From the IMG/VR virus record IMGVR_UViG_3300025889_018046, positions 1 through 21,626 of that record: a stretch of 21,626 nucleotides of DNA. One strand, given 5' to 3'. The DNA comes from a virus. How positions within the stretch are numbered: the stretch's first letter is position 1; every line of letters starts with the position of its first letter. The translations under genes and the position numbers were made by a program. Positions 3,409 through 17,850 of this stretch are shown piece by piece. A model generated the notes under the pieces. It was not told the DNA's origin. It made no database searches and saw nothing but the letters and a program-made list of their open reading frames with translations.

Positions 3409-4152
3409 ATGAAACTTAAAATGTACGCTTTAATAGGCACAATCACAGGTGCTGCACTGGCACTCGGTGTCCACCACGGAAAACAATTTCTTAAATCGAG
3501 AAGCGAGGTAAGTAAGTATCACCAAGAGATGCTTCTTGCGACAGAACAACCCTTAGAGTTGGGGAACAATCCGGCTCGGACTTACCCTGATGGTGGGTTA
3601 CCTTTGGACGCTACACCTGAGCCAGGCTACCCAATCGAACCGGGATCCTTACGGCCATCCATACAGTTCACAGATCAACCTCCGCCGCTGCCTCCTCTAT
3701 CCAGCACACCTTTTCTTGTCCTTAAAAAATCATCGCAAACAATCAAATCAACCAAAGACCCGGTCTGGACGCTACAGCTTATCAGCAAGGACGGCACTGT
3801 TCTAGATAGCCTGCAGGCTGTGACGGGCAGAGCGTCCCGACAAACAGCTAACCGTCATGTTGCGGGGACAAAAGCTCCGTTGCCTATCGGCGAATACAGA
3901 ATCGACCGAACTGGTATCGAACGAGGACCGTTTGGCGATCCTGAGTTAGGTCGTGGCTACTGGGTTCCTATAACCCCTTTGTTTAACACCGGAAGATCAG
4001 ACTTAGGTTTCCACGTCGATCCTTCATGGGGGAAACTCAACGGAGAATCAGGAACAAGCGGATGCATCGGTCTACAGAGTGTCGATGCAACAGTGAAACT
4101 TGTTACCTGGATTAAACACTTCAACGTCAGCAAACTTACAGTTCAATCATAG
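3409..4152 (+). CDS. membrane-anchored L,D-transpeptidase-like (YkuD-fold) protein, 247 aa
   Basis: The ATG is at 3409, 7 bases after the previous stop. An N-terminal hydrophobic anchor (residues 5-22) and a proline-rich linker (about 57-101, including TDQPPPLPPLSST) lead to a C-terminal catalytic domain (about 102-245). The domain shows PLPIGEYRID, GRGYWVPITPLF, GFHVDPSWG and GTSGCIGL. The pair H202 and C219 in H-x14-S-G-C matches the active site of the YkuD/L,D-transpeptidase superfamily, although the usual His before Gly-Cys is Ser here, as in the Tlde1/DUF2778-like and some cyanobacterial members. Expected activity is peptidoglycan cross-linking, exchange or L,D-carboxypeptidase cleavage in the periplasm. 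Such an enzyme is uncommon in phages and fits the RlpA-like and SH3b neighbours. Confidence 0.8.
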   Translation: MKLKMYALIGTITGAALALGVHHGKQFLKSRSEVSKYHQEMLLATEQPLELGNNPARTYPDGGLPLDATPEPGYPIEPGSLRPSIQFTDQPPPLPPLSSTPFLVLKKSSQTIKSTKDPVWTLQLISKDGTVLDSLQAVTGRASRQTANRHVAGTKAPLPIGEYRIDRTGIERGPFGDPELGRGYWVPITPLFNTGRSDLGFHVDPSWGKLNGESGTSGCIGLQSVDATVKLVTWIKHFNVSKLTVQS

Positions 4153-5130: not shown

Positions 5131-5649
5131 GTGGGCGTTCTCGCAGACTTCCAGATCTCTGCTCTCTGTACATCAGGGATGATCACCCCGTTCGATCGGG
5201 ACTTAGTGAACCCCGCGAGTCTGGATGTTCGATTGGGTGAAACGATCCTGATTGAAGCTGAAGGCTGTGGGTTGAAAGATCTAAGTCTCCACGGCTTCAC
5301 TAAAAAGAAACCTTTCTATCTAAACCCTGATGAGTTTGTCCTGGCGCATACGCTCGAAACTTTCAACATCCCTGAGCACCTGGCAGCGCAGTTCGCGTTG
5401 AAGTCTTCGGTAGCGAGGGCGGGACTCGAGCATCTCCTTGCGGGCTTCATCGACCCCGGCTTCAACAATTCCGTTCTGACTCTCGAGCTGAAGAACGCTC
5501 GCCGTATGGAGCGATTCCCGCTTTGGCCTGGCATGCGGATTGGGCAGATCATCTTCTACACGATGGATCAAGTCCCCTTGGCCAACTACAGCGAAACCGG
5601 GAGATACAACGGGGATGCGAGCGTCGCTGCATGCAAGGGATTGATGTGA
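5131..5649 (+). CDS. dcd: dCTP deaminase (possibly with dUTPase activity), 172 aa
   Basis: The start is GTG at 5131, which aligns the N terminus (VLADFQISALCTSG) with known Dcd proteins. Family motifs are in order: LVNPASLDVRLG (25-36), DEFVLAHTLETFNIP (67-81), FALKSSVARAGL (88-99), GFIDPGF (105-111) and LTLELKN (116-122). S92, R96 and E119 correspond to the catalytic Ser111, Arg115 and Glu138 of E. coli Dcd; the first Arg of RSS is Lys91. Dcd converts dCTP to dUTP, feeding dTTP synthesis for phage DNA. The GFIDPGF segment is closer to the bifunctional deaminase/dUTPase and dUTPase type (GWIDAGF) than to E. coli Dcd (HRIDPGW), so direct dUMP formation is possible. It is about 20 residues shorter than E. 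coli Dcd. Confidence 0.88.
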   Translation: MGVLADFQISALCTSGMITPFDRDLVNPASLDVRLGETILIEAEGCGLKDLSLHGFTKKKPFYLNPDEFVLAHTLETFNIPEHLAAQFALKSSVARAGLEHLLAGFIDPGFNNSVLTLELKNARRMERFPLWPGMRIGQIIFYTMDQVPLANYSETGRYNGDASVAACKGLM

Positions 5650-5813: not shown

Positions 5814-5842
5814 TTGACAAGGGGAGCGAGATCCTTTATCTT
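5814..5842 (+). promoter_or_regulatory. sigma70-type promoter for the 5902-11794 operon
   Basis: A perfect -35 box TTGACA (5814-5819) is followed after exactly 17 bases by TATCTT (5837-5842), which has the key T, A and final T of a -10 box. Transcription would start near 5849, leaving a leader of about 50 bases before the ATG at 5902. This is the best promoter seen in the window. It would be read by host vegetative RNA polymerase, suggesting early expression. The adjacent palindrome suggests control. Confidence 0.6.
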
Positions 5843-5901
5843 GCTCGAAGCGGCGGCACAGAGCCTAAAACGCGGTGCAGACTACCTCACATCACACCGA
5901 C

Positions 5902-6327
5902 ATGACTAAGCACACCATCGCAAAACTGGTAGAGCAGGGTCGCCACGCGGCTGCGCTCTACGACGAGTGCGACACCGCACTCACCCAGCTCAACGATTCT
6001 TTCGGCATCCCCTACGAGGCATCTCGATCCAATTTGACTAACGATCTAATCCAAGCTGATGTCTCGGGACTGGATCTGAGTGTGTTTCAAGGCAAAGACT
6101 CCCTCTTTAAATACCCAGACCTCCATACCCACATCGTTGTCCGCATCAACCGGATTGCTACAGGGAACACCAAGCTCGATCGGCTCGATCAAAAGATCGT
6201 CGACATGGAAGAGAAACTCAAGCTTCTGAAGCTCCAACGCAAACACCTGACCGAGGAGCTCAAATCGATCGGTGCAATCGATCTCATCACCGACAAGATC
6301 ACGACCGTGTTCAACCGCCTGAAGTAA
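5902..6327 (+). CDS. unknown coiled-coil protein, 141 aa
   Basis: The ATG at 5902 is used; an in-frame GTG at 5875 would add nine residues and cannot be excluded. Neither has a clear Shine-Dalgarno. The protein has a helical N-terminal half (IAKLVEQGRHAAALYDECDT) and a C-terminal coiled coil with heptad spacing of Leu/Ile (LDRLDQKIVDMEEKLKLLKL). The end, LITDKITTVFNRLK, is amphipathic. It is the first gene of the operon driven from 5814 and lies 5 bases before the DUF3150-like gene. It may be an adaptor or subunit of the AAA+/VWA machine; that is inference from order. The family is unknown. Confidence 0.65.
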   Translation: MTKHTIAKLVEQGRHAAALYDECDTALTQLNDSFGIPYEASRSNLTNDLIQADVSGLDLSVFQGKDSLFKYPDLHTHIVVRINRIATGNTKLDRLDQKIVDMEEKLKLLKLQRKHLTEELKSIGAIDLITDKITTVFNRLK

Positions 6328-6332
6328 GGACC

Positions 6333-7541
6333 ATGAGTGACAACGTATTCATCCTCAAAGTTGAGATCAGTGCTAGTGTGCGCCAAAGCACACAGATTAA
6401 GTTCGACGATCTCAGGCTCCCTGAAGCTGCTGTCGACGCTTTAAAGAAGCAGCAATCCGTCTCTGTACGACCGACTATCTCAGGGAAGCTTCGTGAGTTC
6501 CTAGATCGTCTTCGTATGCAGCAGCGGCACCTATACGACGACTGCACTATCCATCAAGGGGACACTCACTTTCTCCACGAGGATTATTTCCAAGACGCGA
6601 TGCGGCTCATCGAAGAGATTCGGCGCGACGCAGCTCGTTACAACGAACAGCTTCAGGAGTTATGGCACGAAGAGTACGCTCGTTGGGCAACCATGGTCGA
6701 TGGATTCCTCGAGCCACTCTTCACCGAAGATGCGGAAGCTCTTCGTCTAGCCAAAGAGGCTTACCTTTCGCTTTTCCCAACCAAGCAAGAGTTCCAGAAC
6801 CCAATCAAAGTCTTTGTTCTTGGACCAAATCCGGTATCCCTCGAGACGGCTTCCTCAGCTGACGACCACCCTTTAAGCGCAGAAATTCGCGAGGCGTCGA
6901 TACTCAATACGACTGAGGTTCTCAAAGCCGCTCGGGATGGAGCAGCGGATCGTGCTTGCCTTAAAGCAGCCGAGCTTCTTGATGACCTTGATGTCCGAAT
7001 CCCCAGCAAAGTAGGAGCCAGACAAACGGGTGGTAACAAGAGGCGGGGATCTTGGGAGATCGCAACCCAAGAGCTTGAGCTCATCGCCACGCACTGTCCA
7101 GGTTTTGAAAACCTCTCCAAACTCTCAAATCAATTGATGCAGATCGGGGTGGAGATGCAAACCGGAGACTCGAAGACGAGAACGAGCGCTCAACAGAAGT
7201 TCAACCAACTCAAAGTTGAGATTCGTAAGGAGCTCGAAAGCATCGTTTCTAAAAGAGACGCTACCGACGGGCTCGAAACCCTGAAGCGGTCCTTAGCCTT
7301 GTCCGGCAGGTACCGAGACCTCCTCGGTCAGATCCAAGCAGCAGAATCTCAGGAGCAACTGGATGCACTCTATGAAGGCATACAAACCGAAAAGGATGTG
7401 TACGAGCAGCGTGCTCGGCACCTGCAGCAGCTGTTCGAACAACGAACAGAACTTATCCGAGCATCAAACATTAACCTCGACGATGTTCTCGCTGAAGTTC
7501 AGCAACTAAACCCCTCAACAACAAACGATTGCGACTTCTAG
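6333..7541 (+). CDS. DUF3150-like protein, 402 aa
   Basis: The ATG is at 6333. The N terminus is a beta-rich segment (FILKVEISASVRQSTQIKFD) followed by DLRLPEAAVDAL. A helical region follows with THFLHEDYFQDAM and YNEQLQELWHEEYARW. This order (short strand, DL.L, then GxxFL-type motif and a helical W/Y-rich stretch) resembles DUF3150 proteins, a phage/plasmid family often found beside MoxR-type AAA+ ATPases. The middle (about 175-300) is variable and the C-terminal third is coiled coil (residues about 290-390). The function of DUF3150 is unknown; I infer a structural or substrate-adaptor role for the ATPase encoded 2 bases downstream. Family assignment is moderate because the motifs are loose. 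Confidence 0.65.
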   Translation: MSDNVFILKVEISASVRQSTQIKFDDLRLPEAAVDALKKQQSVSVRPTISGKLREFLDRLRMQQRHLYDDCTIHQGDTHFLHEDYFQDAMRLIEEIRRDAARYNEQLQELWHEEYARWATMVDGFLEPLFTEDAEALRLAKEAYLSLFPTKQEFQNPIKVFVLGPNPVSLETASSADDHPLSAEIREASILNTTEVLKAARDGAADRACLKAAELLDDLDVRIPSKVGARQTGGNKRRGSWEIATQELELIATHCPGFENLSKLSNQLMQIGVEMQTGDSKTRTSAQQKFNQLKVEIRKELESIVSKRDATDGLETLKRSLALSGRYRDLLGQIQAAESQEQLDALYEGIQTEKDVYEQRARHLQQLFEQRTELIRASNINLDDVLAEVQQLNPSTTNDCDF

Positions 7542-7543
7542 AA

Positions 7544-8728
7544 ATGAACGACGCACTTTTCACTAAGCTTCAGAACTTTCGTTCCTCACTCAACACCAAG
7601 TTTCTCGAGCGAGAGGATGTTATTGACGGAGTGCTTGCTTCAGTAATAACCAAACAAAACTGTTTCCTCTTTGGCTTGCCTGGTACAGGTAAGTCTGAAC
7701 TGGTTCGGGAGATTAGTAACGGGTTCAAAGGCTCCGAGTTCTTTGGGTACTTGCTGTCCCCGACCACAGATCCTTCAGAGTTGTTTGGCCCCGTGGCGGT
7801 CTCGAAGCTGCTTAAAGATGAGTACGTCAGAGACGTAAAAGGGTATTTACCGAGTGCCAACATCGCTTTTCTAGATGAGCTCTTCAGGGGAAGCAGCGCA
7901 GTGCTGAATAGCCTTTTGACGATCCTCAACGAGAGGACCTTCAACAACGGTCGCGAAGTTATCCAGACACCTATTCAATCAGTTGTTGCCGCAACAAACA
8001 GCTTCCCCACGGAAGAATCGCTGCAAGCTTTCTGCGACAGATTCTTATTTCGACCTACGGTTGAACCACTTAAAAAGCCAACCTCAAGACGACTATTGGA
8101 CTTCTGGGCTCTTGGGATAGAAGAACGTCCCTGTGTTGTATCCAAGCTCAGCTATGCAGATCTGACCAAACTTCAGGAAGAAGCAACGAACATCGAAGCC
8201 TCTGAGGAATTCCTAGATCGGTTCAGCCAGGTTTTCGATCTGCTCTCATCAAGAGGGATCACCATCTCCGACAGACGTCGGGTTCAGATTCTTCGCTTTA
8301 TGAAAGCTTGGGCTTTGGTCCAGGGCGACGACATGATCTATGCTGAACATCTACACCGCTCACTGATTCACATTGTATACCAGACGACCGAAGACATTCC
8401 TGTGATCAAAGAAGTCCTCGATCAAGCAGTTCCTACTGCGGAAAAGATGATCGCTAGCCTGAAACGGGCGCACAATGGGATCCTCACTGAGTATCACGCG
8501 ATCCACGGGGCGAACTCGAAGAGTGTTTCAGACCTCAATGGGGTCGTCGGAAAACTCCGTAAGCAACACGCAGATCTACAGATTCTGGAAGAGAAGCTGG
8601 ACAGCCTTCTTGAAGCTAAGGACTGCCGAATCACTATTAGCGCTCGCCGCGACGGAGTGAAACTCTCGCAGATGGTCGAACAGAGCAAGCAAATGATCGC
8701 TCAATCCATCTCTGATATCACACTATGA
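7544..8728 (+). CDS. RavA/MoxR-type AAA+ ATPase, 394 aa
   Basis: The ATG at 7544 is 2 bases after the previous stop; an in-frame TTG at 7529 is less likely. AAA+ motifs are complete: Walker A GLPGTGKS (44-51), Walker B IAFLDE (107-112), sensor 1 ATN (150-152) and arginine-finger candidates in FCDRFLFR (163-170). The segments GYLPSANIAFLDELFRG and NSLLTILNERTFNNG closely follow E. coli RavA (GYLPEA.IVFLDEI..., NTLLTAINER.F), as does the DR.L.R after sensor 1. The C-terminal half is a helical lid with a long coiled-coil region (about 310-385). MoxR ATPases act as chaperone-like motors with a VWA partner; here that partner is encoded next, with an ATGA overlap. Cyanophage genes of this kind are sometimes labelled cobS, but the RavA match is better. 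Confidence 0.87.
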   Translation: MNDALFTKLQNFRSSLNTKFLEREDVIDGVLASVITKQNCFLFGLPGTGKSELVREISNGFKGSEFFGYLLSPTTDPSELFGPVAVSKLLKDEYVRDVKGYLPSANIAFLDELFRGSSAVLNSLLTILNERTFNNGREVIQTPIQSVVAATNSFPTEESLQAFCDRFLFRPTVEPLKKPTSRRLLDFWALGIEERPCVVSKLSYADLTKLQEEATNIEASEEFLDRFSQVFDLLSSRGITISDRRRVQILRFMKAWALVQGDDMIYAEHLHRSLIHIVYQTTEDIPVIKEVLDQAVPTAEKMIASLKRAHNGILTEYHAIHGANSKSVSDLNGVVGKLRKQHADLQILEEKLDSLLEAKDCRITISARRDGVKLSQMVEQSKQMIAQSISDITL

Positions 8729-10269
8729 ATTTCAAGAAAGAACGTGAGTATTTGAGACTTACGGAAAACGAGCCCTTGATCCTTGCGGTAACAGCTCTTA
8801 GTGACTTCCTTTGGGAAGATTTCATTCGTGACACGCACCCAACTGTCAGTTATCTGATCGATCAGTACAACATCAGGCAACTCTCCCGTTTCGGAAAAGA
8901 GTTGTTCGACTTCTTGTACAACGGAGGAGCCGTGACACCTCTCATCTCGATGGATGAAGCTGAGAGCTACTTCCGAGCCAAGCAGAACGGACAAAATCCG
9001 GAGTTCCCTGCCGGTTACAAACCAGAATCTGCCTTCTGGGTCGCAATCTTTGCGGAGATCTGCAACGCTCCTGCATGGCCACGGCTTATGACCGTTTCTT
9101 GCGGAAATCAGTTCAACGCAGGTAACAACGCAGTCAACATCCTGAATGAGTTGAGCGAAGTTCTAGAGACTCAGATCGAGCAACACCAACTCCCTATCGA
9201 CCTGATCGCTGAAGGGGGCAAGAGGCTGGAGGAGCTCCGCCAAGCTTTCCTCGAAGCGAAGGCATCTGGTGATGACAGGAGCGCTGCAAAAATCAGAGAA
9301 GCAGGGAAAGAGCTAGGTAAAGCCATCGAAGAGGCTGTCGAGAAAAGCCGTCAGATGGTGCAGCCTGAAATCTCACGGGCAATCGACACTGTCGAGAAGA
9401 CTTCTAATGAAACACAAAACGCCATCAACAGTCTTGCAGGAAGCCAACAAGGAAACGGTAAACACAGTGATGATCTGCACGAAAAGCGCGAGCTCGCGAA
9501 GAAACTCCAACGCAACCCAAGCTTAAAGAAACTAATTAACAAACTTGGTGCGTTGAGACGAGCCTGGAACGACCGCAAGAGAGCTAAGCGTGCACAGAGC
9601 AACTACAGCGACATTGTCGGTGCGAAGTTCTCAGACGAGGTGACAAAAGCCTTCCCTGTCGAGCTCGCTCTGGCTGCCACAGAGGAGGGTCGGGCTCTTT
9701 TCGCTCTCAAATATGCCCAGAAAACAGTTCTCACCAAGGATTACGAGGCGAAGATAAAAGACATCGACAGAGGCCCAGTGGTTATGTATATCGATGTGAG
9801 TGGCTCTATGTGCGGAGAGGCAGAACTTTGGAGCAAAGCTCTCGCTTATGTGGTCTCAGAGGAATGCGTCCAACAAAAGCGTGAGCTACGCATTCACCTG
9901 TTCGACACCAAAGTTCAGAAAAGTATATTCCTCGACCCTGCTCGGGGAAATAACGCTGACCTTCTTAAATTTGTTTTGAGTTGGACTACACATGGGGGCA
10001 CGTCGTTTAGTTCAGTAATAGACCACGCGCTGAACTCTGCTATTGATCCCAGGGCTGACGTTTTAATGATTACAGATGGTCAGGCTGAGGTAAGCGACCC
10101 GTTTATCAGGCGCCTCAACGCACTAAAGGACGAGTTGGATCTCCAGTGGACTTCGTTCTGCATTGGCGTCCAGGCTCGAGTTCTCAGTCAGTTCAGTGAC
10201 GATGTGCAACTTGTAGACATCCAAGACAACCCAGAGTCAGTAACCTTGTTTCAAAATGCGCTGAGGTAG
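8725..10269 (+). CDS. ViaA-like VWA domain protein, 514 aa
   Basis: The ATG at 8725 overlaps the ATPase stop (ATGA), so the two are translationally coupled. The long N-terminal part is helical (residues 1-340), with a charged coiled-coil section (about 165-265) and a basic patch (RRAWNDRKRAKRAQ). The C-terminal VWA domain (about 350-510) has an intact MIDAS: D357, S359, S361 in IDVSGSM, T426 in HGGTSF, and D451 in MITDGQAE. This two-part layout, helical N terminus and C-terminal VWA beside a RavA-like ATPase, is that of E. coli ViaA, which stimulates RavA. The VWA domain should bind Mg2+ and a partner protein. The cellular target in this phage is unknown. Confidence 0.85.
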   Translation: MNFKKEREYLRLTENEPLILAVTALSDFLWEDFIRDTHPTVSYLIDQYNIRQLSRFGKELFDFLYNGGAVTPLISMDEAESYFRAKQNGQNPEFPAGYKPESAFWVAIFAEICNAPAWPRLMTVSCGNQFNAGNNAVNILNELSEVLETQIEQHQLPIDLIAEGGKRLEELRQAFLEAKASGDDRSAAKIREAGKELGKAIEEAVEKSRQMVQPEISRAIDTVEKTSNETQNAINSLAGSQQGNGKHSDDLHEKRELAKKLQRNPSLKKLINKLGALRRAWNDRKRAKRAQSNYSDIVGAKFSDEVTKAFPVELALAATEEGRALFALKYAQKTVLTKDYEAKIKDIDRGPVVMYIDVSGSMCGEAELWSKALAYVVSEECVQQKRELRIHLFDTKVQKSIFLDPARGNNADLLKFVLSWTTHGGTSFSSVIDHALNSAIDPRADVLMITDGQAEVSDPFIRRLNALKDELDLQWTSFCIGVQARVLSQFSDDVQLVDIQDNPESVTLFQNALR

Positions 10270-10272
10270 ACC

Positions 10273-10479
10273 ATGAGTTTCTTTAACAAAAAAGACTTGG
10301 AGGAAGTAGATGATATTATAGCTTACTATAACCTACCAAGAAAAGCCGCAAACAACTTCTCAAAGATTGGTGACTTCTGGGCCGACGACCTAGGCAATTG
10401 GTGGATCTGCAATAAGATCGTGGCAGGCGAACCTATTTATACGAGGTTGACTCCCAATGAGCCGGATAAACCTTGCTAG
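10273..10479 (+). CDS. small unknown protein, 68 aa
   Basis: The ATG at 10273 follows the VWA stop by 3 bases, with GAGGT just upstream as a ribosome site. The product is acidic at the N terminus (KKDLEEVDDIIAYYN) and rich in aromatic residues (DFWADDLGNWWICNK). No domain is recognised. It overlaps the next gene by 23 bases. Its place directly behind the AAA+/VWA pair makes it a possible accessory to that system. Confidence 0.5.
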   Translation: MSFFNKKDLEEVDDIIAYYNLPRKAANNFSKIGDFWADDLGNWWICNKIVAGEPIYTRLTPNEPDKPC

Positions 10480-10939
10480 ATCAATCCGGAACTTAGAGAC
10501 AAAGTACGGCGGAAATACGACTCGATTTGAGCTTGAAGAGTGGCTCCGCGATCAACTATTAGATACTTATCTGGAAGTAAATAATCAAGACAAGACTGAT
10601 AACAGCTTTAAGTTTGAGGACACGTTCATCGTCTTCTTGCCTAAACAGCAGTTAATAAACCTAACGAGACTAGATGACGAAGGCAAAGTTCTAGAGTGCT
10701 CTATATCGTTTAAGAGTTTTATGCTCGAAAACTACGGAATAAGTTCCATGCAGGATGCGAGGACAAGCATCGAGCTTACGACCTTCGATTTCGAGTTAAT
10801 TGCAATGCAGATCACCGACTCCATCTCAGAGTGGGGTCAGTATGCCTTGATACTGACTCGACTCGGCGAGTGGCAAAAAGCAAACGGAAAGCGACAGGAA
10901 TCTAAAGATAAACGAAAAAACCAAGACATGTCTCAGTAG
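10457..10939 (+). CDS. unknown protein, 160 aa
   Basis: The ATG at 10457 lies inside the end of the previous gene. The protein is mixed alpha/beta with a strand-rich centre (DTFIVFLPKQQLINLTRLDD, then VLECSISFKSF) and a helical C terminus (ISEWGQYALILTRLGEWQKA) ending in a very basic, Lys/Gln-rich tail. There is no signal peptide. The family is unknown. It is probably co-transcribed with the RavA/ViaA-like genes, as there is no terminator between them. Confidence 0.55.
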   Translation: MSRINLARSIRNLETKYGGNTTRFELEEWLRDQLLDTYLEVNNQDKTDNSFKFEDTFIVFLPKQQLINLTRLDDEGKVLECSISFKSFMLENYGISSMQDARTSIELTTFDFELIAMQITDSISEWGQYALILTRLGEWQKANGKRQESKDKRKNQDMSQ

Positions 10940-10975
10940 CGCCATTACTTTCGACAAGTCATTCAAAAACTCTCG

Positions 10976-11794
10976 ATGCAGTTCGAGTTCGCCTTCACAC
11001 TTGGCAAAACAAAGCTCAATCAAAGCGAAGCCAAGGCCCTCCTCTCGGCCACAGAAAGTCCCGCCAAGATTACGATCGATATCCTGAACCATATCGATCC
11101 CAACCTTGTCGACTCGAAGAAGCTCTTCTCCTTGAGCGTGGAGAAGAAGAATCCCGAGCTCGCAACTCTCGCCGCACGGTTTGCAATCGAGGGCATTGAG
11201 CTCAGCAAGAAACGACGCGCTAGCGCCGAGATTAAGCGTATTAGCGACATCAAGCCGTCGCGAGCCATCGAACGAGCCTCAGACGCTATCGCTGAGCTTA
11301 ATGAGATGAATGGTATGAAGAGTCTTGGAGCGGCAATGCTCCTCGCTTCCCTCGCCAAAGGCCAAGAGCGAACCCTTCGTCAGATCGCTGTGTCCACGGT
11401 GAATGATCTCGCATTTAAAGGAGAGGTAAGCGCTGACTCCGCTTGTTTCCGAGGCTTTATGAAGGATGGCGACGACAACTACAAGCCCATCGATAAGCGC
11501 CCCGGTATCGACCGCAGCGAGTGTTTCCATACTTCTCCTGTGTACACGGCTCTTCGCGAAGGTCTGTCGCTACTCATGAGCTGGGGAATGATTAAAACAA
11601 CCAAAACGACTGATTTTGGATCAAAGAGCGGTAGCGAAGAAGGTAACCTCAAGCTCCTCCGTCGGACTGTCTACAACGTTGAGCTGACCGAACTCGGAAT
11701 CAAAGCCTCCGAGCAGTGGGCTGACATCAACAAGTTCATCAGTCACCGCTGGTCGCAGCGCGTGCGGAACCGTTACGCTTATGCTGCTGCTTAA
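10976..11794 (+). CDS. unknown helical protein, 272 aa
   Basis: The ATG is at 10976, after a 36-base gap. Residues 1-110 are helical with a basic patch (ELSKKRRASAEIKRIS). The middle contains AAMLLASLAKGQERTLRQIA and the later part resembles a winged-helix segment (YTALREGLSLLMSWGMIKTT, then a strand pair KLLRRTVYNVELTELGIKA). The C-terminal pattern 'helix, turn, L.R..Y.V.LTE.G' is common in DNA-binding wHTH domains, so DNA binding is possible. I do not recognise the family. It is the last gene before a strong terminator and closes the operon that starts at 5814. Confidence 0.6.
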   Translation: MQFEFAFTLGKTKLNQSEAKALLSATESPAKITIDILNHIDPNLVDSKKLFSLSVEKKNPELATLAARFAIEGIELSKKRRASAEIKRISDIKPSRAIERASDAIAELNEMNGMKSLGAAMLLASLAKGQERTLRQIAVSTVNDLAFKGEVSADSACFRGFMKDGDDNYKPIDKRPGIDRSECFHTSPVYTALREGLSLLMSWGMIKTTKTTDFGSKSGSEEGNLKLLRRTVYNVELTELGIKASEQWADINKFISHRWSQRVRNRYAYAAA

Positions 11795-11812
11795 CGGCGC
11801 AGAGAAACCCAC

Positions 11813-11838
11813 GGGGCGCCCTCAGCGGCGCCTTTTTT
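11813..11838 (+). terminator. rho-independent terminator after the 10976 gene
   Basis: GGCGCC at 11815-11820 pairs with GGCGCC at 11827-11832 across a 6-base loop and is followed directly by six T residues (11833-11838). It lies 19 bases after the stop at 11794 and ends 3 bases before the polymerase ATG. It separates the RavA/ViaA-like operon from the replication genes. Confidence 0.85.
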
Positions 11839-11841
11839 ATT

Positions 11842-13737
11842 ATGAAAGTCAAGTACATCACAACACAAGACGCGCTGAGTGAGGCCCTTGCTGAGCTCAA
11901 AGAAATCAAAAAGCTTTGCGTCGACACAGAAACGACAGGACTTGACGCTCGCATTGCGGACCTGCGGCTTCTCCAGCTTTGCTCCACAGAAGAGAAGGAT
12001 GAGGATCGGACTGTCTATGTGATCGACTGCTTCAAGGTGAAACCCACTAAGGAGTTAAAGGAACTAATCGAGAGTCGCGAAATGCTCGTAGCTCACAACA
12101 TGAATTTTGACTTCCAGTTCCTTTTAAAAATCGGCATCGACTACAAAGGAAAGATATTCGACACCTTTATCGCCGAGAGGTGCCTTCGAGCTGGTTTTAA
12201 AGAGAAGCGGATCAGTCCACAGGCAAAGAAACCTTACTTTGCGGATGTCTCCTGTTCACTGAAAGCAGTAGTCGAGAGGCGGTTGGAGCTCGAAGTGGAT
12301 AAGGAACAACAGGTGTCTGACTGGTCGAAGATGGATCTGGACGAGGATCAGATTACTTACGCAGCTAAAGACGTCGATCTGCTCCCAAGGATCGCAGCGG
12401 ACCAACTTAAGGAGTTGGCAGAGGAGGCTCTTCTCGACATATACTCCCTCGAATCCAAGTGCATCCGCCCTGTGGCATCGATGTGTCACAGAGGATTTAA
12501 CGTTGATGTTAATAAGCTAGTTACGTTAAAAGAATCTATTTCCGAGGAACTCCAGAAAAAGACTATAGAATTCTGTACCGAGCTCGACGACGCTCTTCCA
12601 CCTGACCTGAAGCTACCCAGGAACATCGATGGACAGCTGGCAATCGGTAAGAAACAGCGAAAGGAATTCAACCCTGGCTCTGGTGTCCAGTGCGTCAAGC
12701 TTTTCCAAGCCCTCGATATTGAGTTACCTCTTGATGGAAGAACAGGCAAACCGACGCTTAATCAAGTCGCCCTGTCCGAATTCGACAGCGACGATCGAAT
12801 CCTTAATCTCTACCGACAACGGGTCAAGATCGAAACAAGGCTCGAACATGCCGAGAAACTACTTGCAAATATTAATCCTGTGTCTCTTAGGATTCACAGT
12901 CAATATAATCAGTACGGCGCCAACAGCGGACGCTTCACTTCATCCGGTGCCAAGAAGCAGACAGCTAAACAGGTAAAAACACAATTTGCTGTAAACGCTC
13001 AGCAGATACCGCGCAACAACGAATTCCGAGAGTGTTTCGTTTCGAGCGAGGGTTACAACCTAATCATTTGCGACTTCTCTCAGATTGAATTGAGGCTTGG
13101 TGCGGAACTGATTGGCATCCCTCAGATGATCGAAGCTTTCCAGAAAGGACGGGATCTACACACAGTTACGGCGAGCCTTATCTACAAGGTCCCTCTAGAA
13201 GAAGTTAAGAAGAATCAGCGGCAGGAAGGTAAAACTCTGAATTTTGCGCTTCTGTACGGGATGGGCTACAGGAAATACAAAACGTACGCGGCTCAGTCCG
13301 GGAAGGTGATTTCGATAGGGGAGGCAAAAGTTGCCCACGCTGCCTTTCACAACGCCTACCCTCGTTTACGTCAATGGCACCGAGAAAGAGCAGCTTTAGT
13401 AGAAGACGGTTGGTGCTATGTGAGGACTCCACTAGGAAGAAGACGTCTTCTGTCTTACGACGATGCGACAATGACGGCATGCGCAAACACCCTGATCCAA
13501 GGAGCAGGTGCGGACATCCTTAAGCTATCGCTCGCAAACTTAAACGAACATCTAAACGAAGAGGCGCACCTCGTGGCGTGTGTTCACGATGAAATCGTCC
13601 TCGAAGTGCTTGAGAGTAAAACGGATTACTACAAAGAAGTACTTGAGAGGTGCATGCGCGAAGCCGCTGAGACTATCCTCAAGATCGTCCCTTCAAAAGC
13701 TGACGCGGGGACTGGCAAAACCTGGGCTGAAAAATGA
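11842..13737 (+). CDS. family A DNA polymerase with 3'-5' exonuclease, 631 aa
   Basis: The ATG at 11842 follows the terminator. The exonuclease domain is complete: Exo I DTETTGLD (D28, E30), Exo II HNMNFD (D90) and Exo III YAAKD (Y173, D177). The polymerase domain has motif A DFSQIELRLG (D411), motif B R460, K464, F468 and Y472 in the RQEGKTLNFALLYG stretch, and motif C VHDEIVLEV (H582, D583, E584). There is no 5' nuclease domain. It replicates phage DNA with the primase-helicase and SSB-like protein encoded downstream. The residue equivalent to E. coli Phe762 is Phe (F468), the ancestral state. At 631 aa it is slightly smaller than T7 gp5 (704). The stop overlaps the next ATG (ATGA). Confidence 0.95.
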   Translation: MKVKYITTQDALSEALAELKEIKKLCVDTETTGLDARIADLRLLQLCSTEEKDEDRTVYVIDCFKVKPTKELKELIESREMLVAHNMNFDFQFLLKIGIDYKGKIFDTFIAERCLRAGFKEKRISPQAKKPYFADVSCSLKAVVERRLELEVDKEQQVSDWSKMDLDEDQITYAAKDVDLLPRIAADQLKELAEEALLDIYSLESKCIRPVASMCHRGFNVDVNKLVTLKESISEELQKKTIEFCTELDDALPPDLKLPRNIDGQLAIGKKQRKEFNPGSGVQCVKLFQALDIELPLDGRTGKPTLNQVALSEFDSDDRILNLYRQRVKIETRLEHAEKLLANINPVSLRIHSQYNQYGANSGRFTSSGAKKQTAKQVKTQFAVNAQQIPRNNEFRECFVSSEGYNLIICDFSQIELRLGAELIGIPQMIEAFQKGRDLHTVTASLIYKVPLEEVKKNQRQEGKTLNFALLYGMGYRKYKTYAAQSGKVISIGEAKVAHAAFHNAYPRLRQWHRERAALVEDGWCYVRTPLGRRRLLSYDDATMTACANTLIQGAGADILKLSLANLNEHLNEEAHLVACVHDEIVLEVLESKTDYYKEVLERCMREAAETILKIVPSKADAGTGKTWAEK

Positions 13738-15847: not shown

Positions 15848-16375
15848 ATGTATACGCAATACTCTATAACACTAGAAACTAAACGAGTTAAAACTGTATT
15901 GGCTATAACTGCCAACGACGCTGGCCACGCTCAGGCGCAGGCGAAAGACATCGCAAGGGCGCTTAAAGCAGATCGATTCGAGCTGCATTATGAAGAAGCG
16001 AAGGAAACAAGCCTCAGCAAACTCTTCAGGAAACTGGCTTACAACGAGTTTGAGCACAAGACATGCGAGCTCTGGGACCAAGGATTGGTCAACGGAGTGC
16101 CGGTAGCATACCTGATGAACAATCGCTTCTACGTAAGACCAGTGGTCTTGGACTACCTAGACATAACACGAGAAGAAGTGGTGTCCCCCTTATGCGGAAA
16201 TAAACTGTGTGTAAATCCATACCACAATAAATACAAAGCGACAAAAGCATCAAAGTTAAGTAGCGCAGACGTGAATTTGGCGCTAGTGTTCAGCAGCCAA
16301 GGCGTGCCCGTAAAGGAAATCGCCAAGGTACTCAAAGTCCACAGATCAACGATCTACCGAATCCTCAACAGATGA
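15848..16375 (+). CDS. degenerate HNH zinc-finger protein with C-terminal helix-turn-helix, 175 aa
   Basis: The ATG at 15848 has GGAG 9 bases upstream. The N terminus (1-50) is a small alpha/beta segment. Residues 112-128 (SPLCGNKLCVNPYHNKY) match the second half of the zinc-bound HNH motif of phage endonucleases, C..(R/K).CVNP.HL. At the position of the first catalytic His (LDH before the Cys) this protein has VSP, so nuclease activity is doubtful. Residues 140-172 form a clear helix-turn-helix (GVPVKEIAKVLKVHRSTIYR), like resolvase-type HTHs. It is therefore probably a DNA-binding protein derived from an HNH homing nuclease. It follows a terminator and its stop overlaps the SSB-like start (ATGA), so it may lead and perhaps regulate that operon. 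Confidence 0.7.
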   Translation: MYTQYSITLETKRVKTVLAITANDAGHAQAQAKDIARALKADRFELHYEEAKETSLSKLFRKLAYNEFEHKTCELWDQGLVNGVPVAYLMNNRFYVRPVVLDYLDITREEVVSPLCGNKLCVNPYHNKYKATKASKLSSADVNLALVFSSQGVPVKEIAKVLKVHRSTIYRILNR

Positions 16376-17016
16376 ACGTTTTTGTGCTGGGTCTCCGCGC
16401 ATCGGGCGGCGGTCTTCTCGAAGAAGGAACCGTCACACTGACAGCGGAGTCTCTTCCCGCAACGGAGAAAAAAATCTCAACGAAAGTCTGCTTGGTCCAA
16501 AAAGCAGACCATTACGTGGGAAAACTCCTGAACGAAGTCCAGGAAGGGGAGACTTTCTTCGCAATCGGACCCACCAAGGCAGATCCAGACGGTGTGCTGA
16601 AAATGCAACCTATGCTGATCGTGCGCAAAGATAACTGGGATGACCTACTTGCGGTCAACCTTTTTGTCGCCACGGGTGGCCTGGGTCCGAAAACTGAGGA
16701 AACCCAACTCGCGGACAACACCGTTACTAATCGTTCGCTTGCTTGGCAAGACGAAAAACAAGAAACCAGCTGGATGAAGCTCAGCTGCTGGAACGAACTC
16801 TCGGGTCAGCTCGCTGAACTCCCGCCCGGAACCCCGACGATTGCTGTCGGGCGCGTGAGCACTTCGGAAAAAGAAGAGCGTGTGTTCCTCAATTACGGCG
16901 TAGACAAGATTCTCTATCTGCCCCGTTCAACGCGGTCTGCTCCAAAGAAAGCCGCCGATCCTGAAAAAGGACGTGTTTCTACTGCTGCTCTCGGTTCTCT
17001 CGACTTTTCGCTCTGA
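16372..17016 (+). CDS. SSB-like OB-fold protein, 214 aa
   Basis: The ATG at 16372 overlaps the upstream stop (ATGA). Residues about 95-185 contain an SSB-like OB fold: NLFVATGGLGP, TNRSLAWQDEKQETSWMKLS, then CWNELSGQLAELPPGTPTIA and VGRVSTSEKEERVFLNY. This follows the SSB pattern (strand, W...v..W......l..G....V.GR......). The N-terminal half (STKVCLVQKADHYVGKLL, EGETFFAIGP) could be a second OB fold. The tail is basic and Ala-rich and ends LGSLDFSL without the acidic tip of bacterial SSB. It probably coats single-stranded DNA during phage replication. The match is by pattern only, and divergent. Confidence 0.65.
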   Translation: MNVFVLGLRASGGGLLEEGTVTLTAESLPATEKKISTKVCLVQKADHYVGKLLNEVQEGETFFAIGPTKADPDGVLKMQPMLIVRKDNWDDLLAVNLFVATGGLGPKTEETQLADNTVTNRSLAWQDEKQETSWMKLSCWNELSGQLAELPPGTPTIAVGRVSTSEKEERVFLNYGVDKILYLPRSTRSAPKKAADPEKGRVSTAALGSLDFSL

Positions 17017-17022
17017 TTAACC

Positions 17023-17850
17023 ATGGTATTTATCGCAGGAAAGTTCTCGGCTGATGAAATCCTCTGCCAGATTCCGCCGCACACGCTCCGTATCGATCTT
17101 CAAGCGCGCCGTTGGAAATCCGATACTGACTCTGAAGCGGCCATCACTGACTCGAATGACAACGGTATACCCATTGAATTCATCCTTCTTGGGTTCACGC
17201 CGTATTTCGGTAACCTCGGTATGCGCTCGCACGAGGAGTTTATTCGTATTAGTTACATTGGTGTCACACCTTCTCATCGTCTTCTTCCTCCACGCTGTGT
17301 ATGTACAAGCATCATTAGCGGCAAGTCGAGTCAGAAAAACTTTATTTCATACTTCCAAACGCTCTACAACAACCGTATTAACGTTGGTGAGGTAATCACT
17401 TCAACCAAGTTCACGCAGAAGTCCTTCAACGAGAGGGACCCTGTAACTGGAGCCGATGGAGCAAAGATCAATTACAACGTTCTCGAGTTCAAAGACCGCC
17501 CTGCTCAAAGCGATGAAGAGCGGAAGCTTATCGAGGATATTGGAAATTGGCTTGAGAGCGATGGAGGAGAGCTGGTATCAGGTGCTCTACGTAGTAGTAT
17601 CTCCGGTGCGAATCTGGTCGAGCTTCCTTTGGGAGAGGACCACGCGGCAATCAAGGAAGCTTTTGTTGAAGCTAACCCCAAGAGACTAGAAGGATCCGCC
17701 CCTGCTACTTTGGCTTCTCTTCCCGCTTCTGCGGGTGAGCCAGGAGCTAAGGCAGATAAGGAACCTCCTGCCGCTAAGAAGGAAAGCGCTAGTAAAGAAC
17801 TTTCCGAAGAACAAAAGGCTGCTTTAAAAGCAGCGGGTCTTGAGATCTGA
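17023..17850 (+). CDS. unknown protein beside the SSB-like gene, 275 aa
   Basis: The ATG is at 17023, 6 bases after the SSB-like stop. Residues 1-125 are mixed alpha/beta (FILLGFTPYFGNLG, SHEEFIRISYIGVTPSHRLL, then CVCTSIISGKSSQKNFISYF). Residues 210-275 are a disordered Ala/Pro/Lys/Glu tail (GEPGAKADKEPPAAKKESAS) ending EEQKAALKAAGLEI. The ordered core plus flexible tail, and the place beside an SSB-like gene, suggest a replication or recombination accessory such as a ssDNA-binding mediator. I recognise no catalytic motif. A terminator follows directly. Confidence 0.65.
   Translation: MVFIAGKFSADEILCQIPPHTLRIDLQARRWKSDTDSEAAITDSNDNGIPIEFILLGFTPYFGNLGMRSHEEFIRISYIGVTPSHRLLPPRCVCTSIISGKSSQKNFISYFQTLYNNRINVGEVITSTKFTQKSFNERDPVTGADGAKINYNVLEFKDRPAQSDEERKLIEDIGNWLESDGGELVSGALRSSISGANLVELPLGEDHAAIKEAFVEANPKRLEGSAPATLASLPASAGEPGAKADKEPPAAKKESASKELSEEQKAALKAAGLEI

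Follow-up and report, generated by a model that had tools for sequence, protein, structure and literature searches.

A phage MoxR-VWA operon with a third component beside a DNA polymerase gene, and C-terminal tips shared with other proteins of the phage

The operon and its conservation

We have analysed a 21.6-kb fragment of an uncultured virus (IMG/VR record IMGVR_UViG_3300025889_018046), all 21,626 nucleotides of which we call the window, and we are concerned here with an operon of seven genes, A to G, at positions 5814 to 11838. Three of its products, a MoxR ATPase (C), a protein with a VWA domain (D) and a third component (B), resemble modules of other phages and of plasmids and integrative elements, and B ends in a C-terminal tip of a kind that recurs on an SSB-like protein encoded further downstream and, in most relatives, on the protein encoded next to it. 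It is these shared tips, together with the setting of the operon, that suggest a possible role in replication or recombination.

The seven open reading frames (ORFs) all lie on the + strand and are closely packed, as a first-pass annotation of this DNA had described, and in related viruses the block is retained as one syntenic unit. Gene A (5902-6327) encodes a coiled-coil protein of 141 amino acids (aa) that belongs to no known family; its start is best placed at the ATG at 5902, from which its homologues align, rather than at the GTG at 5875, which would give a longer product. It is followed by B (6333-7541; 402 aa), C (7544-8728; 394 aa) and D (8725-10269; 514 aa, with a long N-terminal part), the last of these overlapping C in the sequence ATGA. 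Three further genes complete the set: E (10273-10479; 68 aa), F (10457-10939; 160 aa, of no known family) and G (10976-11794; 272 aa). The AlphaFold2 model of G has a predicted local distance difference test score (pLDDT) of 84; neither by sequence nor by fold does G match anything significant in the PDB, and its resemblance to MarR-type winged-helix proteins is weak (E above 0.1).

An intrinsic terminator (11813-11838, + strand), which the earlier annotation had also identified, closes the operon; our own search places it at 11813-11834, and most of the relatives shown have a hairpin plus T-run there as well. Directly after it stands a gene for a family A DNA polymerase (PolA) with a 3'-5' exonuclease (11842-13737, + strand). 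At the other end, before gene A, there is a promoter-like site, TTGACA-17-TATCTT (5814-5842, + strand). This pattern occurs in the window at the level expected by chance (3 found, 3.9 expected), and so does not by itself bear out the promoter that had been proposed here; what speaks for the site is its recurrence before A in 25 of 63 relatives, as detected by a loose regular expression.

Profile-guided scans identified 110 viral loci with a relative of B and 191 with a relative of D, of which the best 80 of each were kept. In all 62 loci with enough flanking sequence, which belong to an abundant clade of uncultured phages, A, B, C, D and G stand in this order before PolA, all six genes on one strand. 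Of these 62 loci, 50 have F and only 15 have E, and E is therefore not a constant part of the set. Thus, the expectation that the gene for B and four orphan genes would accompany the ATPase/VWA pair holds for A, B and G without exception and for F in most loci, while the sporadic E has to be taken out of it. The distances between genes vary, from 6 to 909 bp between B and C and up to 192 bp between C and D in the first locus set, so that the gene order survives insertions. We note that an additional 0.9 kb or so separates B from C at three loci (L023, L094 and L103), and the MoxR from the VWA gene at two others (L071 and L073).

One relative, G001, has a sequence of 85 kb and carries the operon in its replication half, on the strand opposite the terminase, portal, head and lysis genes. 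The named phages whose polymerases come nearest to PolA infect Pseudanabaena, at an identity of 28% only. No B was found when one genome for each of 84,980 species of bacteria and archaea was scanned with two peptide patterns, a method of limited sensitivity.

The ATPase and the VWA protein

The product of C contains Walker A (GLPGTGKS, residue 44), Walker B (FLDE, 109) and sensor-1 (AATN, 149) motifs as well as SDRRR (242), and D contains DVSGS (357), GGTSF (424) and ITDG (449). Across 45-47 homologues all of these motifs vary little or not at all, and the residues of the metal-ion-dependent adhesion site (MIDAS) of D, namely D357, S359, S361, T426 and D451, are complete and invariant in 47. 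The RavA-type motifs of C, the ATGA coupling and the intact MIDAS of D were therefore correctly read in the first-pass annotation.

The best Pfam match of C is bpMoxR (PF20030, 187.7 bits), followed by PF07728 (76.6 bits) and AAA_lid_8 (23.5 bits, with a cut-off of 22.8). By its motifs and by its MoxR-clade domains, C is a MoxR AAA+ ATPase of the RavA-like branch. D is a VWA domain protein with a MIDAS; its matches to Pfam VWA_2 lie below the cut-off. The solved structure nearest to C is that of RavA (E 7.5e-41), residues 8-269 of C aligning with residues 10-276 of RavA. The match ends at residue 267-269, does not extend beyond the AAA+ core and leaves the C-terminal half of RavA unmatched. 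The curated RavA model (NF010054, equivalog) gives C 129.4 bits against a cut-off of 681, and the ViaA model (NF008230, equivalog) gives D 54.6 bits against a cut-off of 500, over the C-terminal part of ViaA. Since these scores fall far under the cut-offs, C and D are, as judged from their sequences, related to RavA and ViaA without belonging to those families, and the proposal of a phage version of RavA-ViaA cannot be kept as such.

The peptidase motif HExxH is present in none of 66 homologues of D. Domain searches of A to G found no VMAP, iSTAND, FtsH, beta-propeller or effector domain, and PADLOC returned no match of weight for the operon.

The third component

The first-pass annotation had called B DUF3150-like. 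The Pfam family itself (PF11348) gives no match to B in 11 records at E<=10, nor is it among the families listed for 45 homologues of B at E<=1. The name therefore rests on profile-profile and fold evidence. We compared B with DUF3150 proteins gathered from the genomes of Pseudomonadota, 21 distinct ones in all, and hhalign aligned residues 6-269 of B with columns 31-256 (of 360) of DUF3150, over 221 columns, with a score of 33.1, an E-value of 0.0014 and a probability of 18%. By comparison, 30 column-shuffled versions of B scored no higher than 26.2, six other protein families of this phage no higher than 21.5, and the profile in reverse 21.3. With the AlphaFold model of B (pLDDT 84) as query, Foldseek gives matches to six predicted structures from viruses at E<=0.001. 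Five of these have no informative name, and the match to a viral model named DUF3150 has a probability of 1.00 and an E-value of 4.9e-4, with a low template modelling score (TM-score). The TM-scores for B range from 0.2 to 0.35, as is expected for long flexible helices or for a distant match. From these profile and model comparisons we regard B as a likely, putative remote homologue of DUF3150; the earlier name would then stand for remote homology, and it falls as a Pfam family match.

Neither by sequence nor by fold does B match anything significant in the PDB. Two other assignments of B were considered and rejected, DUF6744 (hhalign probability 0.3% with one DUF6744 protein) and LPD29 (no similarity). 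DUF3150 was found in only one record of an isolated phage, and a single query of viral contigs returned none. We found no papers on DUF3150 or DUF6744 in the open-licence literature.

C-terminal tips within the phage clade

All 69 distinct homologues of B terminate in Asp-Phe (-DF), which follows a variable and often acidic stretch. Similar ends are found on two other proteins of these phages. One is a protein resembling single-stranded DNA-binding protein (SSB), encoded in the window at 16372-17016 (+ strand) with the tip GSLDFSL; it matches PF00436 in 27 of 31 clade members (best E 4.3e-5), and its end is FSL in 78 of 79 cases, mostly in the form GS[LIV][DNE]FSL. The other is a conserved protein of 275 aa and no known family (17023-17850, + strand), referred to below as the 17023 protein, whose last residues are [LI]DF or LEF in 43 of 61 cases, in relatives mostly as G[LI][DE]F, and GLEI in the window. 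Among the 134 ORFs of G001 and the 132 of a second relative, G005, the only products to end in [LIP]DF or DFSL are B, the SSB-like protein and the 17023 protein. We found no earlier description of shared C-terminal tips of this kind in open-licence papers; to our knowledge they are new, and they are the part of this analysis that is worth an experiment.

Tips and modules in other elements

The DUF3150 loci of Pseudomonadota encode a CobS-like MoxR and a VWA protein bearing HExxH, often together with SSB, the annealase Bet and a RecE/YqaJ exonuclease. At these loci 19 of 21 DUF3150 proteins and 13 of 13 exonucleases end in F, W or Y, as against 26 of 261 other genes; such ends are rare in MoxR (1/17) and VWA proteins (2/18) and absent from Bet (0/9). 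Moreover, the tips of DUF3150 and exonuclease match within an element, as in the pairs SSFYF/NSFYF, NEWFY/VGWFF, FSASF/FSAAF, QNMFF/RNMYF and QFAW/EVIW. Over ten elements the last four residues of the two proteins share 23 identities, compared with 11.6 expected when the pairing is shuffled. In order to allow for the relatedness of the elements, the test was repeated on the eight whose DUF3150 proteins are less than 40% identical, which gave 17 identities against 8.4 expected (exact permutation p 0.00035). Since DUF3150 and the exonuclease are unrelated in sequence, a common binding partner best explains the likeness of their tips.

The elements in which we observed an element-specific aromatic tip common to DUF3150 and RecE/YqaJ are L226, L230, L234, L236, L253, L254, L257, L258 and L262. 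The CobS-like MoxR proteins of two of them (L226, 5064-6140; L236, 10592-11551) are labelled 'porphyrin biosynthesis' (phrog_249), a name that is probably misleading. A paper that characterises ssb, bet and exo of SXT does not mention MoxR or cobS.

A different third component is found in two Pseudanabaena plasmids, which carry a module of DUF6744, MoxR, VWA, a Sak4-like ATPase (AAA_24) and SSB (L210, 3476-9146; L264, 1015-6735). Here DUF6744 ends in ..FDLGF or ..FDIGF, the Sak4-like ATPase in ..LEF and SSB in ..YDDF or ..DDDF, and MoxR and VWA have no terminal Phe. The DUF6744 proteins of a Moorella phage, Streptomyces and Alicyclobacillus lack such a tip, which is therefore not universal in this family. 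Sliding clamp genes adjoin two further MoxR-VWA modules. In a Lysinibacillus plasmid (L265, 5021-7951), a MoxR-VWA pair lies beside a gene for an S16 (Lon-type) protease, a possible further partner.

Comparison with known systems

MoxR-vWA pairs have already been described in other phages (PMC7824862), and a MoxR-VWA pair with a third component is a known kind of module, of which the present operon is a variant. It resembles RavA-ViaA of E. coli in its MoxR core, which aligns, and in the overlapping gene for a VWA partner that comes next; it differs in having the third component B, a context of replication genes and no C-terminal half of RavA. The Pseudomonadota modules likewise have three types of component, a recombination or replication context and an aromatic tip on DUF3150, but their MoxR is of the CobS type (phrog_249) and their VWA protein has the HExxH that D lacks. 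The same lack separates the operon from jumbo phages, in which MoxR goes with a metallopeptidase-VWA fusion.

The DUF6744-MoxR-VWA modules of plasmids and of the Moorella phage MTATph1 share bpMoxR with the operon, as well as a third gene, neighbours of the clamp, SSB or Sak4-like type, and a VWA protein homologous to D (393 columns, E 4.9e-26), whereas the single DUF6744 protein that was compared with B is not similar to it. The Aphanizomenon phage vB_AphaS-CL131 also has a phage MoxR-VWA pair, in the order LPD29-MoxR-VWA-DnaN and so adjoining the gene for the beta subunit of DNA polymerase III, but its third gene carries LPD29 and is not similar to B. The ternary MoxR-vWA conflict systems likewise combine MoxR, VWA and a constant third component, and the best domain of C is bpMoxR; their VMAP, iSTAND, FtsH, beta-propeller and effector domains, however, were not found in A to G. 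Finally, the tip of SSB (DDDIPF) is, like that of B, an acidic flexible tail with a terminal Phe, and it recruits or activates ATPases (PMC5928155, PMC7847540). The phage tip differs in that it also occurs on the third component of a MoxR-VWA module and that its xDF has no Pro.

A proposed machine and its rivals

In known MoxR-VWA systems, the VWA domain captures a substrate peptide, which the MoxR ring refolds or releases (PMC7159879). Such modules recur in mobile elements and phages, and their targets are mostly not known. The first-pass annotation had proposed that the operon remodels a host complex, assembles a phage complex or counters defence. The replication context (PolA, SSB, nuclease, primase) and the shared tips point beyond these proposals, to replication or recombination of the phage DNA, and related modules sit beside Red genes or genes for SSB, annealase, nucleases or sliding clamps. 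We see an even chance that B, C and D form a phage MoxR-VWA ternary machine that acts on replication or recombination complexes by way of the shared C-terminal tips.

In such a machine, C would be the MoxR ATPase ring, D its VWA cofactor and B the third component of a ternary complex, with A, F and G as putative accessories specific to the clade. The tips of B (-[x]DF), of the SSB-like protein (..GSLDFSL) and, in most relatives, of the 17023 protein (..G[LI][DE]F) would all be recognised by a single receptor. There are known cases in which the tail of an SSB recruits an ATPase or switches it on: the tail of the phage HK620 SSB loads Sak4 (PMC5928155), the terminal Phe of a mycobacterial SSB is required for activation of the AAA+ ATPase ClpX (PMC7847540), and the site through which Red-beta binds the SSB tail may overlap the one used for lambda exonuclease (PMC7496540). 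On our proposal, then, B would dock the C-D motor onto a receptor that also reads the tips of the SSB-like and 17023 proteins and, in other elements, of the exonuclease. Candidates for this receptor are the VWA site, where the MIDAS metal might be within reach of a terminal carboxylate or an Asp, the annealase, or another replication protein. The ATPase would thereby be brought to single-stranded DNA or replication complexes of the phage, where it might remodel or recycle proteins, for example by exchanging SSB-type proteins or by freeing a stuck replication or recombination assembly.

Several observations weigh against this proposal. The link between B and DUF3150 is statistical, with the hhalign probability of 18% given above, and the assignment of the window copy of the SSB-like protein lies below the Pfam cut-off (PF00436). 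The tip of the 17023 protein has been lost in the window and in some relatives (LEI, LEV, LSV, LAV), and SSB has an aromatic end in only three of nine DUF3150 elements. Furthermore, the whole replication region of the clade is syntenic, so that co-occurrence and gene order alone are weak evidence of joint function, and the tips are nearly constant within the clade, so that covariation is uninformative there.

Non-polar or aromatic residues at a C-terminus can be protease signals. The shared tips could accordingly be stability signals, C-degrons read by a host protease, with no common docking partner. We think this quite unlikely, for the tips differ from element to element and agree between unrelated proteins of one element, and the MoxR, Bet and VWA proteins of the same elements mostly have none. 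The machine might instead assemble or process the virion, since chaperoning a large complex fits MoxR biology, and the authors who described the MoxR-VWA pairs of archaeal viruses (Acidianus two-tailed virus, tail) and of group 2.2 jumbo phages tied them to assembly (PMC7824862, PMC7159879). This, too, we regard as unlikely: the operon is always beside PolA, in G001 it lies in the replication half and on the strand opposite terminase, portal and head, D has no peptidase HExxH (0/66), and the related modules adjoin SSB, annealase, nuclease or clamp genes.

The two remaining readings are directed at the host or at competitors. A mimic of RavA-ViaA might remodel host respiratory or membrane complexes, or antagonise a host MoxR, and both the structural neighbour of C (RavA) and the weak match of D to the C-terminal part of the ViaA model are in keeping with this. 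Such a take-over of the host is nevertheless very unlikely in our view, given that C has no match to RavA beyond residue 269, that both scores fall far under the cut-offs, and that a constant core gene of the replication block would be unusual for an accessory host-range function. A role in defence or superinfection exclusion, of the MoxR-vWA conflict type, is suggested by bpMoxR, the best domain of C, which is named after the MoxR-vWA-beta-propeller conflict systems (PMC7159879). With no beta-propeller, VMAP, iSTAND or effector domain, no PADLOC match of weight, and components that have kept their sequence and order instead of diversifying, we find it highly improbable.

A wider form of the docking proposal seems to us possible but somewhat doubtful. 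Whether encoded by a phage, a plasmid or an integrative element, MoxR-VWA machines would form a general class of replication and recombination remodellers, in which the third component (DUF3150, B or DUF6744) bears an element-specific address tip that is shared, and co-evolves, with those of SSB, RecE/YqaJ or the Sak4-like ATPase, and a single receptor sorts its clients by their last residues. If this were so, AAA+ remodelling would be linked to single-strand annealing and replication in all three kinds of element, and DUF3150, DUF6744, B and the phage 'CobS/CobT' would fall into one functional class. If the tips are real address tags, peptides of 6-10 residues would give a direct handle on the substrate.

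A leader RNA and the upstream genes

The leader that separates the promoter-like site from gene A contains a pseudoknot-like element of 31 nt (5849-5879, + strand), of the form [n]GG[CT]GGCACCG[GA]CC[n]..AACGYGGYGC. Of 63 relatives, 48 have it, with a single exception 18-27 nt before A, and about 15 lack it; in the genome sequences examined, the strict pattern was found at that place only. Rfam has no match to it. At pair 6 of stem P1, 32 of 43 sequences have C-G and the other 11 T-A, and pair 3 is paired in 38 of 43, as G-C, C-G or A-T; shuffles give p 5e-5 for each of these pairs, uncorrected for relatedness. The crossing helix P2 is GCAC/GTGC in 29 sequences and has mismatches in 13 (an A.C mismatch in 11), and it is therefore less secure than P1. 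P1 and the crossing P2 would together make an H-type pseudoknot. This leader may regulate the operon, and it is a candidate for a cis-regulatory pseudoknot dedicated to a MoxR-VWA operon.

Upstream of the operon, the product of 603-1304 matches phrog_2554, a family whose function is not known, over the C-terminal part of the family only (E 2.3e-66). Further genes encode, as read from sequence only, an RlpA-like protein (1566-1883) and a protein like L,D-transpeptidases (3409-4152), and another gene encodes a protein like dCTP deaminases (5131-5649; PF22769).

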